Source: an uncultured Kiloniellaceae bacterium (GTDB lineage Bacteria > Pseudomonadota > Alphaproteobacteria > Kiloniellales > Kiloniellaceae). Taken from it: a stretch of DNA of 64,000 nucleotides. The notes beneath the pieces were generated by a model. It was not told the origin of the DNA. It made no database searches and worked only from the letters and a program-made list of their open reading frames with translations. How positions within the stretch are numbered: the stretch's first letter is position 1; every line of letters starts with the position of its first letter. The stretch is taken from positions 372,001 to 436,000 of the forward strand of contig CANLSF010000004.1 of NCBI GenBank assembly GCA_947493695.1, written 5' to 3'. Positions 25,563 through 31,549 of this stretch are shown here, piece after piece. Made by a program: the position numbers and the translations under genes.

Positions 25563-27572
25563 CTAGGCGCCGGTATCGAGAACCAGGATGCAATCCTGGC
25601 CGCCTTCTTTAATCCTGGCGCAGATTTCCAACATTTCCTCCCGGTCGCCAGCAACGCCAGTCATCACGCGAAAGTACTGGGTGCCCGCTATCTGCCCTTT
25701 CTCAATGCTCAAATCATAGCTGGAGAGCAGATCCGCGAATCGTTCTTTGAATTCCGTCTGCAAACGCCCGGCGTCATCGGCGGAGCGAAGCGCGACAAGC
25801 TGAATGAGGAACCGGTCTTCGTTGGTTACTGCCAGTTTTTGCTGCAATTCTGCCGTTTCCGGCTTCAAGAGACTTTCCGGTTCGGCAGGAGGCAGTGAAG
25901 TCAGCCTGCCCTGCCCGTCTTCCTTCATCGAGTTTGACGGCACCACAAGGATCTGGCGGCTATCTGAGCTAAGTTCCTCCAGCTTGAGAGTATCGCCTGT
26001 TGACAAGGCGGGTTCCGAGCCGGTGGACGCAGGCAACAAATAGGATCCCTCGAGGGTCTGTTTTTCTTCCTGGGTTGATAACGCGGCGGAAATAAGCGCG
26101 GGCGCGGAAGGTCCTTCCACTGTTTCCGGGGTTGCTTCGACTACCATGGATGACTGGAGATCTTCACTTGAGGTATCCGGGGCCTGCAGCAGCAAACTCG
26201 TTTCAGGAAGTATCAGAAGTGCCAACACCACGGCGGCGGCAATGGCGCCGCGGGCCATAACCGGTGCACGGTGGCGAAGCGTGATGATTTCCGCCTGAAC
26301 CGGGCTTTCTCTGAATTCGTCAGTCAGTTGCGTTTCGACCTGAGACTCCTGTTTCGACGCCTCAGCTTCAGCCGTCTCCTGTATCAGGTCCTCTTCTGTG
26401 CTTGGCCTATCCGTCGCTGTAACAGCATTGCTTTCGCCAGGTTGCTCGGTGTCTGGTTCAGACTCGGTTTCAAGCTCAGGGCTATGCTCAGACCCGTCCT
26501 GCGCTTCCTGCTCCCTCGCGTGAACCACTGCCTCCGCAACAAGAGTTACTCGCTGAGATTTTTCCAGCAGAAGCGTGTCATCGTCCTGAGAATTGACCGC
26601 CGTCGTCTCGGCAAGGACCTCATGTTCGTCGTTCCGGATTTCCACAGTCGGGAACCGGTCGTCGTTAGCCGGTTCTTCTTCCTGCGCCACACTGACAGTT
26701 TCCTGAGCGCCGGAAGATGAGGGAGTGTCTGTGGGTTGTTTGATATCGGGGACCTTGAGCAGGCCTTCTTGCATCATGTCCCGCGCCACGATACCCACGA
26801 CCGCGGAATCGATGCGGTGTAGCTCTTCAAGAAATCCATGCAGAAGCAGGCGGTCGCAGATCACATTGATGCGCCGTGGTACGCCGCCACTCAAGTGATG
26901 GATCAATTCGAACGAGCGATCAGAAAATGCCGGGTCGCCCTGCCAACTCGCAAGATTCAAACGGTGAAGAATGTAGCTGCGTGTGTCCTCTAACCCCAGA
27001 GTGCCCAGATGACTGGAGGTGACTACGCGCTGTCGCAACTGCTCCAGGCGTTCATCAGCCAGCGTTTCTCTGAATTCAGGCTGACCAACCAGGAAAATCT
27101 GCAGCAAAGATTCGCCTGGAAGGCAGAAGTTGGACAGCATTCTGAGTTCTTCGAGTGACGACTCTGGTAAGTTCTGAACTTCATCGACGAAAAGAATCGG
27201 GCGCCGGCCAAGCACCCGTTCCTCTTCAAGAAAATTGCGGATACTCAAAAGCAGCGACGCCTTGTTTTTCCCTTCAGTCTCAATCCCGAAGGTCGCAGCC
27301 ACAAGTGACACCAGTTCTTCGTGTTCGATGAAGGACGTCACGATGTTGCCGGTGATGTAACGGGACTCTTCCAAATCTGAGAGCATGCGGTTGACCAGCG
27401 TGGTCTTACCCGCGCCGACCTCACCCGTAATCACCACAAACCCCTCGTTGCGAGACAGCGCATACTTCAAATGCGCAATCGCCTTCTCATGCGGTTCTGC
27501 CACAAAGAAGAACCGATGATCGGGGTTCAGGCGGAACGGACTCCCCCTGAGATTATAAAAATCGCTGTACAT
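25563..27572 (-). CDS. ExeA/GspA-like AAA ATPase with C-terminal SPOR domain
   Basis: 669 residues. The AAA module (about 1-270) begins MYSDFYNLRGSPFRLNPD as in ExeA/GspA, with Walker A GEVGAGKTT at 50-58 and Walker B ILFVDE at 126-131, followed by the sensor/arginine region GGVPRRINVICDRLLL. A long acidic linker (about 275-430) leads to one transmembrane helix (about 437-461) and a periplasmic part ending in a SPOR domain (about 588-667, FLIQLVALRSADDAGRLQ ... YFRVMTG). ExeA itself carries a different peptidoglycan-binding domain after its helix, so SPOR replaces it here. The likely job is ATP-driven work tied to peptidoglycan; the partner is unknown. Last gene of the 31549-25563 unit; 58 bases after the TAXI gene. 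Confidence 0.88.
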   Translation of the reverse strand: MYSDFYNLRGSPFRLNPDHRFFFVAEPHEKAIAHLKYALSRNEGFVVITGEVGAGKTTLVNRMLSDLEESRYITGNIVTSFIEHEELVSLVAATFGIETEGKNKASLLLSIRNFLEEERVLGRRPILFVDEVQNLPESSLEELRMLSNFCLPGESLLQIFLVGQPEFRETLADERLEQLRQRVVTSSHLGTLGLEDTRSYILHRLNLASWQGDPAFSDRSFELIHHLSGGVPRRINVICDRLLLHGFLEELHRIDSAVVGIVARDMMQEGLLKVPDIKQPTDTPSSSGAQETVSVAQEEEPANDDRFPTVEIRNDEHEVLAETTAVNSQDDDTLLLEKSQRVTLVAEAVVHAREQEAQDGSEHSPELETESEPDTEQPGESNAVTATDRPSTEEDLIQETAEAEASKQESQVETQLTDEFRESPVQAEIITLRHRAPVMARGAIAAAVVLALLILPETSLLLQAPDTSSEDLQSSMVVEATPETVEGPSAPALISAALSTQEEKQTLEGSYLLPASTGSEPALSTGDTLKLEELSSDSRQILVVPSNSMKEDGQGRLTSLPPAEPESLLKPETAELQQKLAVTNEDRFLIQLVALRSADDAGRLQTEFKERFADLLSSYDLSIEKGQIAGTQYFRVMTGVAGDREEMLEICARIKEGGQDCILVLDTGA

Positions 27573-27630
27573 ACCAACTCGCCGATGAAAATTTTCTTTG
27601 TCTCAAAGAGACGAAAAATAGCCCCAGGTA

Positions 27631-28737
27631 TTATTGGCTCTGCTTGGCCTGCCAAAGCAGGAAGAGTTTGAAAAGTTCGTCCTTGCTGGCCTCGTCGGAG
27701 AGCTTATCCGACAGCGAGGAATCCTGGCTGGCCAGGAAAGCTTCGAAAGCCGTTTTGGTCTTATCCAGATCGTTACTGACCATGACGTTTTTCTTGAGCC
27801 AGTCCTCTGCAGGCTTGTAGCGGTTCCAACCAGGCACCACAGCCGTCAGGCTGACCTCCTGCCATTTCTGATGCCGTGGCGGTGTCTGGAAGGCTTCGAA
27901 CTGGGAAAAGAACGCATCGATAAAATTGATCGTCTTTTGCCGCCGGGGATGATCAGCGGGCCAGTTGTAAACAGCCATCACAGCCCCGACCGCCAGTGTC
28001 TTGACCTGTTCGTTCTCCGCGACCAGTCGCGGATAGTCATCATGGGAAAATCGTGAGGGAAGATAGGTTTCCAGGATCGCGTCGGTCAGCGGGATCGGCA
28101 GGAGGTGGATGCCTTCCGTCGCTTCAATGCTGTTGAAGAGTTGAGCCGGTTTACCGGCCACGTATACCAGTCCGGCAATTTCACCTGATTTGACCTTCTC
28201 CAGGGCAAGACCCTGATCGAAACTGACCGGAACCGGTTCGACCTGTAGCCGGTCAAACACGATGGAGGCCGTCATGTAGGTCCCGCTGCCCTGTACGCCG
28301 AAGTTGACCTGCTTCCCAGCCAGGTCTTCGACACTTTTGATATCCTTGGAGACCAGCAGGTGGAATTCTTCGTTGTAGAGCTTGGTGATGTAGTGCACCC
28401 GGCTGTCGATGGTCGGATGCCGCTTAGACTGCTTCACGAAGGCGAAAACGTCCGACTGCACGATACCGATATCAATGCCGCGCAGATACAGGATGTCGTC
28501 GATATTCTGAACCGAGCCCTTTCCCATGATCGGCAGGACCCGCAAGTCCTCGTTGTTATCCAGAACAGAGGCAAGATCAGTCGCGATACGTATATAGGTG
28601 CCATTTATCCCGCCGGAGATAATGCTGACCGTCCCCTTGTTGATCTGTTCGCGAAGCTCCTGCGCGCCGCCAACCGAAATTGCGGTCATCAAACACAGCG
28701 CGCCGATTGCTGTTCGGATTAGCCATCTCAACATCAT
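27631..28737 (-). CDS. TAXI-type TRAP transporter solute-binding protein
   Basis: Periplasmic binding protein, 368 residues from the first of two adjacent ATGs (28735-28737, behind GGGAGA). Signal peptide about 1-26, ending VGGAQE. The body has the TAXI features ISGGINGTYIRIATDLA, IGIVQSDVFAF, LVSKDIKSVEDLAGKQVNFG and GSGTYMTASIVFDRL, then a C-terminal extension of about 80 residues (VPGWNRYKPAEDWLKKN onward) beyond the usual domain. TAXI proteins normally feed a fused DctQM permease; none is present, and it sits between a coiled-coil and an ATPase gene. It may be a ligand sensor rather than an importer part. Confidence 0.88.
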   Translation of the reverse strand: MMLRWLIRTAIGALCLMTAISVGGAQELREQINKGTVSIISGGINGTYIRIATDLASVLDNNEDLRVLPIMGKGSVQNIDDILYLRGIDIGIVQSDVFAFVKQSKRHPTIDSRVHYITKLYNEEFHLLVSKDIKSVEDLAGKQVNFGVQGSGTYMTASIVFDRLQVEPVPVSFDQGLALEKVKSGEIAGLVYVAGKPAQLFNSIEATEGIHLLPIPLTDAILETYLPSRFSHDDYPRLVAENEQVKTLAVGAVMAVYNWPADHPRRQKTINFIDAFFSQFEAFQTPPRHQKWQEVSLTAVVPGWNRYKPAEDWLKKNVMVSNDLDKTKTAFEAFLASQDSSLSDKLSDEASKDELFKLFLLWQAKQSQ

Positions 28738-28834
28738 CAGTCTCCCTGACACTTTTCTTCTTGGTGTTATTGCCCCATTGCTGCGCTCGTCTCGCGCACC
28801 CGCCCGTAGACGGGTTCATGTTTCTTCGCCGTTT

Positions 28835-31549
28835 TTATCTCTGTTCCCAGGCCCGCAAAGCCTTGAGCCGTGCGACCGCATCGTCGTCACCCGCCCCCGC
28901 GCCTATTTCGTACCATTCTCTCGCTTTTGCCGGCCGTCCCGGTGCGCCGACGACGTCCAGGCTCTGCAGATAGAGAGGATCGAATGTCTTGCCGATCGAA
29001 GTCGCCGCCCGCTTGTTACCGCTGTCCATAGAAAGCTCGTAAAACAAACGCGCCGATGCGATGTCGCCAAGCTCCAGGAACGCGTCGCCTCGCTTTATAT
29101 TCGCATCGCTGATTTTCGCGGGAGCAAATGTCGCAGTTCTAGCCGGCTCGATCTTTTGAACCGCGGCAACCGGGGTCACAGCAAGGGCCTCAGGCGAAGC
29201 CTCTGTTACAACGGTGGCGGCAGCCTCTGCCTGGCCCTCGGTTTGGAGCGCATTTTCTGCGGTCGTTAGTGCCGCGCTCAGTTCAGCGACCTTCTGTTCG
29301 GCCAGGTCCGCGCGGTCTGACTGCGCCTCAACTTCCTGCACTGACGCAGTCTGTGTCGCTTCAAGTTCCTGAATCCTCTCACGCGCGAGGGTCAGTTTGC
29401 CGGTCAGTTCGGTTTTAAGTGAAGCAAGCAGACGATCCTTTGCACTCAAGAGGCCTTCGGTCGCCGCGAGTTGATCACCCACTTCCAGCATTTCGGCACG
29501 CAGTTTGGCGATCTCATCGGTTTTCGCTACCGCGTCCTGCTCCCAGAGTTTCGCTGCAGCGTCAACGCGTGCCGCCTGCTCCAAGGCTTCCGCGGCATCC
29601 GATTCCAACTGGTCGATCACTAATTTGGCTGAACCTTCGGCGGTCTTGAGACTTTCTTCCAGACCGGCTTTCAGCGCGATCAACTGGGCAACCTCCTGCC
29701 GGGTTTTGATCAACTCGTAGTTCAGGTTTTCCACATCCGTCTGGCTACGTTCCTCCGCAGCGATCAGCTTGTCCTCAACGTTCGTCAGCTCTTCTTCAAG
29801 ATCGGTGTATCTGTTTTGGGCGGTGGCCAGTGCCTCGGCCTGTGTCACCATCGCGGCTTCATTGGACCGCAGGCTCTCACGCAGCTTCTCAGCTTCCGCC
29901 TGCGCTTCGGCAAGCGTCGCATCCTTGCCCACCAGGTTCGCATTGGCACTGGCTTGCAGGTCCGCGATTTTCTGTTCACCGGCAGCAATCGCCTCATCCC
30001 TATTCGCAACCTCAATCGCACTTGCCGCGATCAGTGCCTTGAGTGAAGCGATCTCAGTTTCAGCTGACGCAAGGGCTTCATTTCCATCCGTCAGCTTTTT
30101 CTTATCAGCGCTTGCATTGGCTGTAAGCAGAGAGGCCTGCTGCTCGAGCACCGCCATGGCATCAGACTGGTTTTTGATTTTCGCCGAGAGATCCGCGGCC
30201 TCTGCCTTCAAAGTCTCGATTTCTTTCTGCGCGACGCTATGGGCTTCGGCGCGAGCTTCAATTTCCGACTGGCGTGACGACAAAGCGCTCGTCAGTTCTG
30301 TCGCTTCGGTCTCTGCCTTGGTCAGGGCTGTCTGTGTGTTTTCGACATCCGCCCTTGCAGCCGTTAGTTCGCTTTGAAGCTTCGCGATTTCGGCCTGAGC
30401 TGCAGCGAAGCTCTCAGACTGACGTGCCGTTTCCGCGCTGCCGGCTGCTATTTGTGTTTTCAGAATTGCGATTTCGGCCAGTGCAGATTCCCGTAACTTT
30501 GCATCTGCCGCGGCTTCGGTTTCGAAGCCCTCTTCAAGCGATTTCATCGCCGCACGAAGATCCGTGATTTCGCGCTGAGCTTCAGCAAGCTCAGTGGACT
30601 TTAACACCGTCTGTTCTCTTGCGGCTGCTGTTTCGGTATCGAGTGTCTTTACCTCCTGCTGCATTGCTGCCAATTGCGCTTCCAGCGCCGACGCGGCGGC
30701 CAGAGCATCAGTGTTCTGCGTAGCGAGTTCGTCTCTCACCTGATCGAGCGATTGCTGAAGACTATTCCTCTCTCGCCCGGCTGCTTCCAGGTCTTCGGTA
30801 AGAACGGATATCTTTGCTTCAGCGTCTGCGAGTTCGGTCTTTGCGCCAGACGTTTCTTCCGTGTCGTTCACAGATTGTGGAGCTGGGAGAGGCGCTGGTG
30901 AGACGCCGGTTGCGAGCAGAGCCCTCACCTGTGCCGTGGCTTCCGGATGACCGTTATCCGATGAGCGCAGAAACCATGCCAGCGCGCGGCCTTGGTCCTG
31001 TGAGAGGAGTAAACCTTCGTTCCTGAGCTGCCCGAGAACAAATTCTGCCGGGGCATAGCCTCCGTCGGCCGCGCTGCGCAGCCACTTCTCAGCAAGTTTG
31101 GAATCCTCGCTTGTGCCCTCGCCTCGAAAATATGCCAGGCCCAGATTATATTGCCCCTGAACGTTGCCTTGTGCGGCTGCGGCTTGCCAAAGCCGGAAAG
31201 CACTCGCGGCATCTTTTGAAACGCCGCGGCCTTCCGCGGTGAGTTCACCGAGACGATTCTGCGCGGAAGCTAAGCTTTGTTCTGCGGCCTTTTGATACCA
31301 TTCGACTGCGCGCTGAAGATCTTTTTCGTTGGACGCACTGTTCAGGTCGTAAAGGCGCGCCAGGCGAAACTGTGCCCGGGCATCTCCCCGGGCTGCGAGA
31401 ATCTTCCATATGGAAAGCGCTTTGTCCTTGTCGCCCGCGTAGACTGCGTCCAGGCCGGTCTCAAAGGTCGCGCTCCACGCGGGATAAGGAATCGCAGCGC
31501 CAATTCCTATCGGCAACAACAGAATCCAACCGAATTTGGAGAGTCTCAC
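28835..31549 (-). CDS. Secreted Sel1-repeat and long coiled-coil protein
   Basis: 904 residues starting at GTG with an N-terminal signal peptide (about 1-26, ending YPAWSA). Residues about 30-210 are Sel1/TPR-type repeats (e.g. AVEWYQKAAEQSLASAQNRLGEL; LAEKWLRSAADGGYAPAEFVLG). Residues about 235-760 form one very long Ala/Glu/Lys-rich coiled coil with heptad spacing. The C-terminal about 100 residues return to a Sel1/TPR-like helical fold (RGDAFLELGDIASARLFYELS, KAREWYEIGAGAGDDDAVARL). Predicted periplasmic scaffold. First gene of the three-gene unit with the TAXI protein and SPOR-ATPase. Exact homologues are not recalled. Confidence 0.85.
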   Translation of the reverse strand: MRLSKFGWILLLPIGIGAAIPYPAWSATFETGLDAVYAGDKDKALSIWKILAARGDARAQFRLARLYDLNSASNEKDLQRAVEWYQKAAEQSLASAQNRLGELTAEGRGVSKDAASAFRLWQAAAAQGNVQGQYNLGLAYFRGEGTSEDSKLAEKWLRSAADGGYAPAEFVLGQLRNEGLLLSQDQGRALAWFLRSSDNGHPEATAQVRALLATGVSPAPLPAPQSVNDTEETSGAKTELADAEAKISVLTEDLEAAGRERNSLQQSLDQVRDELATQNTDALAAASALEAQLAAMQQEVKTLDTETAAAREQTVLKSTELAEAQREITDLRAAMKSLEEGFETEAAADAKLRESALAEIAILKTQIAAGSAETARQSESFAAAQAEIAKLQSELTAARADVENTQTALTKAETEATELTSALSSRQSEIEARAEAHSVAQKEIETLKAEAADLSAKIKNQSDAMAVLEQQASLLTANASADKKKLTDGNEALASAETEIASLKALIAASAIEVANRDEAIAAGEQKIADLQASANANLVGKDATLAEAQAEAEKLRESLRSNEAAMVTQAEALATAQNRYTDLEEELTNVEDKLIAAEERSQTDVENLNYELIKTRQEVAQLIALKAGLEESLKTAEGSAKLVIDQLESDAAEALEQAARVDAAAKLWEQDAVAKTDEIAKLRAEMLEVGDQLAATEGLLSAKDRLLASLKTELTGKLTLARERIQELEATQTASVQEVEAQSDRADLAEQKVAELSAALTTAENALQTEGQAEAAATVVTEASPEALAVTPVAAVQKIEPARTATFAPAKISDANIKRGDAFLELGDIASARLFYELSMDSGNKRAATSIGKTFDPLYLQSLDVVGAPGRPAKAREWYEIGAGAGDDDAVARLKALRAWEQR

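Follow-up and report, generated by a model that had tools for sequence, protein, structure and literature searches.

A TAXI solute-binding protein with a SELC protein as non-TRAP partner suggests an undescribed bacterial envelope module

Background

The GspA/ExeA ATPases of type II secretion have been proposed to insert secretins through the cell wall. Among TRAP binding proteins that lack a permease, we know of few with an assigned partner. TAXI-TRAP proteins are always found with a fused DctQM permease, according to the part of a review available to us (PMC5812351), and orphan TRAP binding proteins and the pairing of a TAXI protein with GltS have already been published (excerpts of PMC12344293). 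A fusion of GspA with GspB has also been described (PMC9239104, in excerpt). Here we follow up a locus in which a permease-less TAXI gene stands between a gene for a Sel1/coiled-coil protein and a gene for an ATPase with a SPOR domain.

The three-gene locus

The window, by which we mean the whole stretch of DNA analysed (64,000 nucleotides from an uncultured Kiloniellaceae bacterium), carries three minus-strand ORFs at 25563-31549, encoding proteins of 904 aa, 373 aa (from a GTG) and 669 aa. With the TAXI start placed at the ATG at 28737, the genes are separated by 97 and 58 bases, in agreement with the initial annotation, whose parts list (a Sel1/coiled-coil protein, a permease-less TAXI protein, and an AAA domain with one helix and SPOR) was likewise matched by Pfam, NCBIfam and hydropathy. 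SELC is a name coined in this analysis for the domain defined by the last 95 residues of the SEL protein. The features of the locus are as follows:

28835..31549, minus strand: SEL gene, encoding a predicted secreted Sel1/coiled-coil/SELC protein of 904 aa (ORF, Pfam, hydropathy; SELC by alignment)
31472..31549, minus strand: signal-peptide-like N-terminus of the SEL protein (hydropathy)
30905..31465, boundaries approximate, minus strand: N-terminal Sel1 repeat region of the SEL protein (Pfam PF08238, 92.1 bits)
29240..30880, minus strand: long Ala/Glu/Leu-rich coiled-coil-like region of the SEL protein (1 proline in 547 residues)
28838..29122, minus strand: SELC domain, C-terminal and Sel1-like, common to TAXI neighbours elsewhere (alignments, searches, model pLDDT 93)
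27631..28737 (ATG; a GTG at 28752 is also open), minus strand: TAXI gene, encoding a permease-less TAXI solute-binding protein (Pfam, NCBIfam, model)
27823..28632, minus strand: two-lobe TAXI core with Y53, S80, Q99, E128 and Y197 in GTG numbering (conserved glutamate-type pocket residues; reference, available part of PMC11574862)
27634..27822, minus strand: helical C-terminal extension of the TAXI protein (structure model)
25563..27572, minus strand: ATPase gene, encoding an AAA domain, one membrane helix and SPOR in 669 aa (Pfam, NCBIfam, hydropathy)
26766..27572, minus strand: AAA domain, grouping with XrtA-type ATPases (Pfam, NCBIfam, tree)
26184..26243, minus strand: single predicted membrane helix of the ATPase (hydropathy)
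25581..25817, minus strand: SPOR domain, on the opposite side of the helix from AAA (PF05036, 32.2 bits, cut-off 21)

The trio is intact, in the same order and on one strand, in all four genomes of its genus (G000-G003, the window's included), and its conservation therefore reflects more than chance. The genus lies near Denitrobaculum/Pelagibius (Denitrobaculum tricleocarpae, Pelagibius sp. Alg239-R121). Some genes that flank the trio in the window are also found beside it in two of these genomes, and Pelagibius sp. Alg239-R121 keeps the trio with none of the tested window neighbours beside it. Identity within the genus, over aligned parts, is 77-84% for the TAXI protein, about 35-42% for the SEL protein and 51-63% for the ATPase. 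Counts of promoters and terminators did not exceed those in shuffles, and none of the three stretches of viral contigs that matched a pattern encoded a TAXI relative.

The TAXI protein and its pocket

The TAXI protein belongs to the NCBIfam family TRAP_TAXI (102.2 bits, cut-off 84.35), matches Pfam NMT1_3 (69.9 bits) and begins with a signal-like hydrophobic stretch, as judged by hydropathy. In a structure model of mean pLDDT 91, helices between residues 313 and 372 bear out the C-terminal extension first noticed in the sequence; several TAXI proteins with a SELC partner (about 320-330 aa long) lack it. Foldseek placed the model in the TAXI fold, with 8u79, 9ibo, 1us4, 8s4j and 4ddd as the top five matches and VCA0144 at ranks 6-7 (TMq 0.59-0.62). 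The same top five were matched by a sequence profile, and the first four of them are TAXI structures with bound glutamate or specificity for it.

The pocket was examined in an alignment of 61 TAXI proteins, taken from 60 of the 80 loci described below (near-duplicates excluded) and from the window, to which the pocket residues of VcGluP, as given in the available part of PMC11574862, were matched by hand. Tyr45, Ser75, Gln93, Glu125 and Tyr200 of VcGluP correspond to Tyr53, Ser80, Gln99, Glu128 and Tyr197 of the window protein. S80, Q99 and E128 are present in 61/61 proteins, Y53 in 58/61 and Y197 in 55/61; the pocket residues rank among the most conserved TAXI positions. Two positions differ from VcGluP: Met201 is Val198 in the window protein (Val in 59/61) and His123 is Tyr126 (Tyr in 58/61). 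The near-invariant pocket residues, together with the glutamate-type structural matches, make a glutamate-type ligand likely as a prediction from sequence and model.

Apparent TAXI fusions in loci such as L061, L187 and L194 were set aside, as their long frames look like over-extended ORFs. In two others, at L157 449-2692 and L159 9941-11962, apparently true TAXI-TAXI tandems are encoded in one chain, with no SELC nearby.

The SEL protein and the SELC domain

Pfam Sel1 matches the SEL protein in four stretches (92.1 bits), alongside weak matches to coiled-coil families, and its N-terminus carries a signal-like hydrophobic stretch by hydropathy. The SELC domain was modelled as six helices (pLDDT 93) from an alignment of 48 rows, made up of 47 of the 67 SELC domains reported below and the window's. 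Foldseek with this model returned TPR and Sel1 folds, with no match below 0.001, and a SELC sequence profile of 26 rows matched Sel1 proteins. Since TPR/Sel1 domains commonly bind proteins, we propose SELC as a dock.

In 66 of the 67 SELC proteins the domain ends at most 18 residues from the end of the ORF, the exception being L126; one of the 67, L144, runs off its contig. In 40/67 proteins a crude scan found a hydrophobic helix located after residue 60 and before SELC; it found none in L126. Because many proteins have such a helix before SELC and others have signal-like starts (both by hydropathy), SELC would most simply be periplasmic, like the TAXI protein. One SELC protein, at L139 6242-10321, has Big_9 (bacterial Ig-like) matches between its membrane helix and SELC.

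TAXI and SELC genes are paired across genomes

Of 139 relatives, a genome scan kept 80 loci, 12 of the 80 being shorter than 10 kb. These loci were searched with a SELC profile built from 11 seed proteins, one from the window and ten TAXI neighbours; at least four of the SELC-positive loci (L127-L130) also gave seeds. A SELC protein was found beside the TAXI gene in 67/80 loci. SELC precedes TAXI in 35 of them and follows it in 17, the genes are convergent in 15, and no pair is divergent. Five loci without SELC lie at or near contig ends (L133, L189, L196, L201, L202), and eight lack it despite room on at least one side (L131, L157, L159, L164, L172, L173, L190, L199). No TAXI-SELC fusion was present among the ORFs of the 80 loci. 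By name, the hosts of these loci belong to Rhodospirillales, Kiloniellales, Azospirillum, Hyphomicrobiales, Acetobacteraceae-type genera and, in the Gammaproteobacteria, Competibacteraceae; many are metagenome bins, one bin is labelled Phycisphaerales, and the named strain Plasticicumulans lactativorans DSM 25287 is also among the hosts.

The same association was seen within the order. At thresholds of E <= 1e-40 for TAXI and E <= 1e-12 for SELC, 17 of 61 genomes have TAXI and 18 have SELC: all 17 TAXI genomes have SELC, and 43 of the 44 TAXI-less genomes lack it (G034 has SELC alone). Fisher tests, which ignore shared ancestry, gave p = 3e-14 at the level of genomes and p = 1e-6 at that of genera (9 and 10 of 28 genera). 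The partner lies within 2.5 kb for 19/41 TAXI places and 19/31 SELC places. The non-adjacent places number 22/41 for TAXI and 12/31 for SELC, of which 20/22 and 6/12 fall in one multi-copy genus (G048-G050); outside that genus, 13/15 TAXI places are adjacent to SELC. The three genomes of the multi-copy genus hold 7, 10 and 9 copies of the TAXI subfamily (loci L058-L060, L062-L064, L066-L074 and L110-L118), and 20 of these 26 copies have no SELC within 2.5 kb.

In a class sample of 115 genomes, TAXI (E <= 1e-50) was found in four genomes and SELC in seven, at eight places. SELC lies within 1 kb of TAXI in all four TAXI genomes, and at the other four SELC places no TAXI was found within the 3.3-kb loci. 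A plasmid collection gave 46 records that match the TAXI protein. Of six plasmid loci opened, three carry SELC (two from Azospirillum, one from Methylobacterium); SELC was not found in those of Bradyrhizobium, Shinella and Rhodobacter.

Outside the trio genus the conserved core is thus two genes, TAXI and the SELC protein. The co-occurrence that the initial annotation proposed to look for holds for all three genes in the four genomes of the trio genus; elsewhere in the genomes searched it reduces to TAXI and SELC, and fusions to AAA or wall-binding domains are confined to a minority.

Several further arrangements were seen. Three loci without such a TAXI (L227, L228, L230) have SELC-like domains beside large genes, which we take to be SrfB-like, and at L229 8452-9855, again without such a TAXI, a SELC-like domain forms the end of an apparent Ser/Thr kinase that has a membrane helix. 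In Shinella (L038 5643-9038) and Rhodobacter (L039 6151-8966) a coiled-coil protein without SELC precedes TAXI, which makes this another type of permease-less-looking TAXI. In Shinella a gene for an IalB-like secreted protein (labelled by reading), presumably syntenic with RgsG, lies ahead of both, and a glutamine synthetase-like gene comes after TAXI. RgsG, an IalB-domain protein, is a polar growth protein in Sinorhizobium, and the paper reporting it was discarded as a TAXI lead: the word match was probably "taxis", and the available passages contain none on TAXI (PMC7327166).

An ORF cluster resembling an RND pump lies less than 8 kb from TAXI in 9/80 loci from several lineages (L129, L151, L152, L156, L160, L161, L163, L167, L197). 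FtsK-, LolA- and Aat-like neighbours in Competibacteraceae (labels by reading) are taken as ordinary context. The RND-pump label is our assumption from the L197 sequence, and the clustering of neighbours across loci was swamped by shadow ORFs on the antisense strand of GC-rich DNA.

The ATPase and the recurring AAA and wall-binding domains

The ATPase matches AAA_22 (85.5 bits), with Walker A at residue 50 and Walker B at residue 126, and hydropathy indicates one strong hydrophobic helix at 444-462. Its SPOR domain lies beyond this predicted membrane helix, the layout of a SPOR wall protein. Against TIGR03015, the XrtA/PEP-CTERM ATPase model, it scores 320.4 bits, below the cut-off of 324.5, and it is 56% identical over 270 residues to the genome's own XrtA-type paralogue. 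That paralogue is on contig C1, about 4 kb away from the single exosortase match in the genome; the trio is on contig C4. Contig C3 encodes a protein of 993 aa that joins an XrtA-type AAA domain to ankyrin-like repeats at its C-terminus (L046 9864-12845).

The ATPase looks nearer by sequence to the XrtA/PEP-CTERM ATPases than to GspA/ExeA. Its description as ExeA-like in the initial annotation thus holds for the layout of AAA, membrane helix and wall-binding domain, and probably has to be revised for family, given the TIGR03015 score, the tree and a SPOR domain in the place that PG_binding_1 takes in GspA. In a tree of AAA domains, deep support in which is weak, the window ATPase groups with the XrtA type and the SELC-fused AAA domains fall elsewhere, which suggests that ATPases have joined the TAXI-SELC module more than once. 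Sequence searches of solved structures gave no match with the ATPase as query and weak unrelated matches only with its SPOR end.

A related ATPase (E <= 1e-40) is encoded in 26 of the 61 order genomes; among the genomes searched, its gene adjoins TAXI and SELC only in the trio genus. Eight TAXI genomes outside that genus have a related ATPase (G005, G021, G037, G042, G044, G045, G056 and G057), in these draft assemblies always on a different contig from TAXI. G004, a genome without such a TAXI, has one full-length relative of AAA-SPOR build (30% identical), encoded within a cluster of the polysaccharide type. The AAA-TM-SPOR protein of L121 (7433-9394) is encoded in an exopolysaccharide-type cluster with sugar dehydrogenase, epimerase and chain-length-like genes (labels by sequence reading).

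Related domains recur within the SELC proteins themselves. Pfam matches among the 67 (E <= 0.001) comprise AAA_22 in 8, SPOR in 3, PG_binding_1 in 2 and Sel1 in 30. L126 encodes AAA_22, SELC and SPOR in one chain of 835 aa, 130 bases after TAXI and followed by another AAA protein that is cut by the contig end. L134 encodes TM-SPOR-PG_binding_1-SELC, convergent with TAXI, and in its close relative L136 a SPOR domain was found by a custom profile. No AAA or wall-binding family is matched by the majority of the SELC proteins, and the ATPase and wall link is therefore not general for the TAXI-SELC module; it is optional but recurring. The linked envelope unit of the initial annotation survives in that TAXI, AAA and wall-binding domains are recurrently linked. 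Its fixed set of three genes does not, as among the genomes searched the ATPase gene accompanies the other two only in the trio genus.

A proposed module and its alternatives

We give an even chance to the trio being a local variant of a more widespread module, a transport-free, glutamate-type TAXI receptor on a SELC-ended envelope scaffold, here coupled to a wall-anchored ATPase. The TAXI protein, freed from TRAP transport, would serve as the periplasmic ligand-binding partner of the scaffold. We infer that the liganded TAXI protein would dock on SELC and that the coiled-coil scaffold would relay the docking to the inner-membrane ATPase, which SPOR would keep at denuded peptidoglycan. An ATP-driven change of the ATPase would then alter a wall-associated process, ligand level and wall state being read together. 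The membrane tether and the ATPase are carried by the third gene in the trio genus; in L126, AAA, SELC and SPOR form one chain. More specific, and a tentative proposal that we would sooner doubt than accept, is a ligand-gated, peptidoglycan-anchored ATPase, for which a TRAP-type protein would sense periplasmic glutamate or a glutamate-containing wall-turnover product, SPOR would read the state of the wall and SELC would dock the liganded TAXI protein.

Transport genes near the locus bear on the alternatives. The genome has 43 DctM matches, none in the window and the nearest on the contig about 94 kb away, which agrees with the missing DctQM permease of the initial annotation; no fused DctQM permease adjoins the TAXI gene in the window, and a TRAP permease-like ORF was seen in 1/80 loci, about 8 kb from TAXI. 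No secretin is linked to the ATPase, and of two secretin matches in the genome the one on the trio contig is about 347 kb away. Neither of the nearby genes that had been named as evidence against the unit, a TRAP permease or a secretin, was therefore found. The genome also has a second TAXI gene without a nearby DctM match, on contig C2 (L048 6711-7772), and three other TAXI genes, each with an adjoining DctM match.

The TAXI protein could instead feed a distant secondary transporter such as GltS, with the SELC protein as a membrane-proximal tether. The pocket is of the glutamate type, a TAXI-GltS pairing is described for Bordetella pertussis (PMC12344293, in the passages available), and in this genome a single GltS is encoded on the contig of the TAXI gene, at a distance of about 317 kb. 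This reading is weakened because a GltS match is absent from 4 of the 10 TAXI-SELC genomes tested (the other six have one each) and because of the single TRAP permease-like ORF among the 80 loci. ORFs with at least six predicted helices lie within 2.5 kb in only 19/80 loci, in a crude scan that included shadow ORFs and did not sort by family, and AAA, SPOR and PG_binding_1 would be left unaccounted for; on balance we think it unlikely. We see similarly little probability in a structural role, in which the TAXI fold would scaffold an envelope conduit or assist in its assembly, the ATPase would insert it through the wall, and ligand binding would be vestigial. The helical scaffold and the TAXI C-terminal extension would suit such a role, as would the likeness of the AAA-TM-wall-binding layout to GspA (excerpts of PMC9239104). 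It would, however, have to explain the upkeep of pocket residues that are among the most conserved positions; no secretin lies near the trio, and the extension is missing from some of the paired TAXI proteins.

Least probable, and to our minds very much so, is chance or passive linkage, in which common descent keeps functionally unrelated neighbours side by side and the ATPase is a stray paralogue of the XrtA type. In its favour, only one genus of the order sample ties the ATPase gene to TAXI, and the tree places XrtA-type ATPases nearest to it. Against this, the trio survives a change of flanks, and fusions of SELC with AAA and SPOR occur elsewhere. For the TAXI-SELC pair passive linkage is already disfavoured, as the two genes stay together in three arrangements and across several bacterial orders, and tend to be present or absent together.

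Comparison with described systems

What is new here is a TAXI binding protein with a SELC protein as its non-TRAP partner, which suggests an undescribed envelope sensing or assembly module. A literature search, with subscription papers mostly outside its scope, returned no account of TAXI with Sel1/SELC, SPOR or such an ATPase. One permease-less TAXI group thereby gains a partner gene that is close to obligate, a probable class of ligand, and links to the wall and to an ATPase that can be tested, in a module that spans Alphaproteobacteria and some Gammaproteobacteria. If the proposed module is real, it would add a new receptor type to the few bacterial ways of sensing the periplasm and the state of the wall.

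The SEL protein may be compared with ExoR of Sinorhizobium, a periplasmic Sel1 protein that controls the membrane protein ExoS; the available passages of PMC4550343 describe neither a TAXI partner nor an ATPase for ExoR, and the SEL protein scores 30.9 bits against the ExoR model NF045484, far below its cut-off of 450. Like the window ATPase, GspA/ExeA combine a cytoplasmic AAA domain, one membrane helix and a periplasmic wall-binding domain, whereas the window protein has SPOR instead of PG_binding_1, no secretin near and a TAXI partner. Its AAA match covers the full length of TIGR03015; it differs from that family in falling below the cut-off, in its extra membrane helix and SPOR domain, and in lying on a different contig from the exosortase. 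The TAXI-TRAP binding proteins VcGluP and TtGluBP share fold and pocket residues with the window TAXI protein, whereas proteins of the window type have no adjoining fused TRAP permease, a SELC partner and often a helical C-terminal extension. The TAXI-GltS pair of Bordetella pertussis is likewise a TAXI protein with a non-TRAP partner, which as described in the available part of PMC12344293 is a Na+/glutamate symporter, whereas here it is a SELC scaffold.
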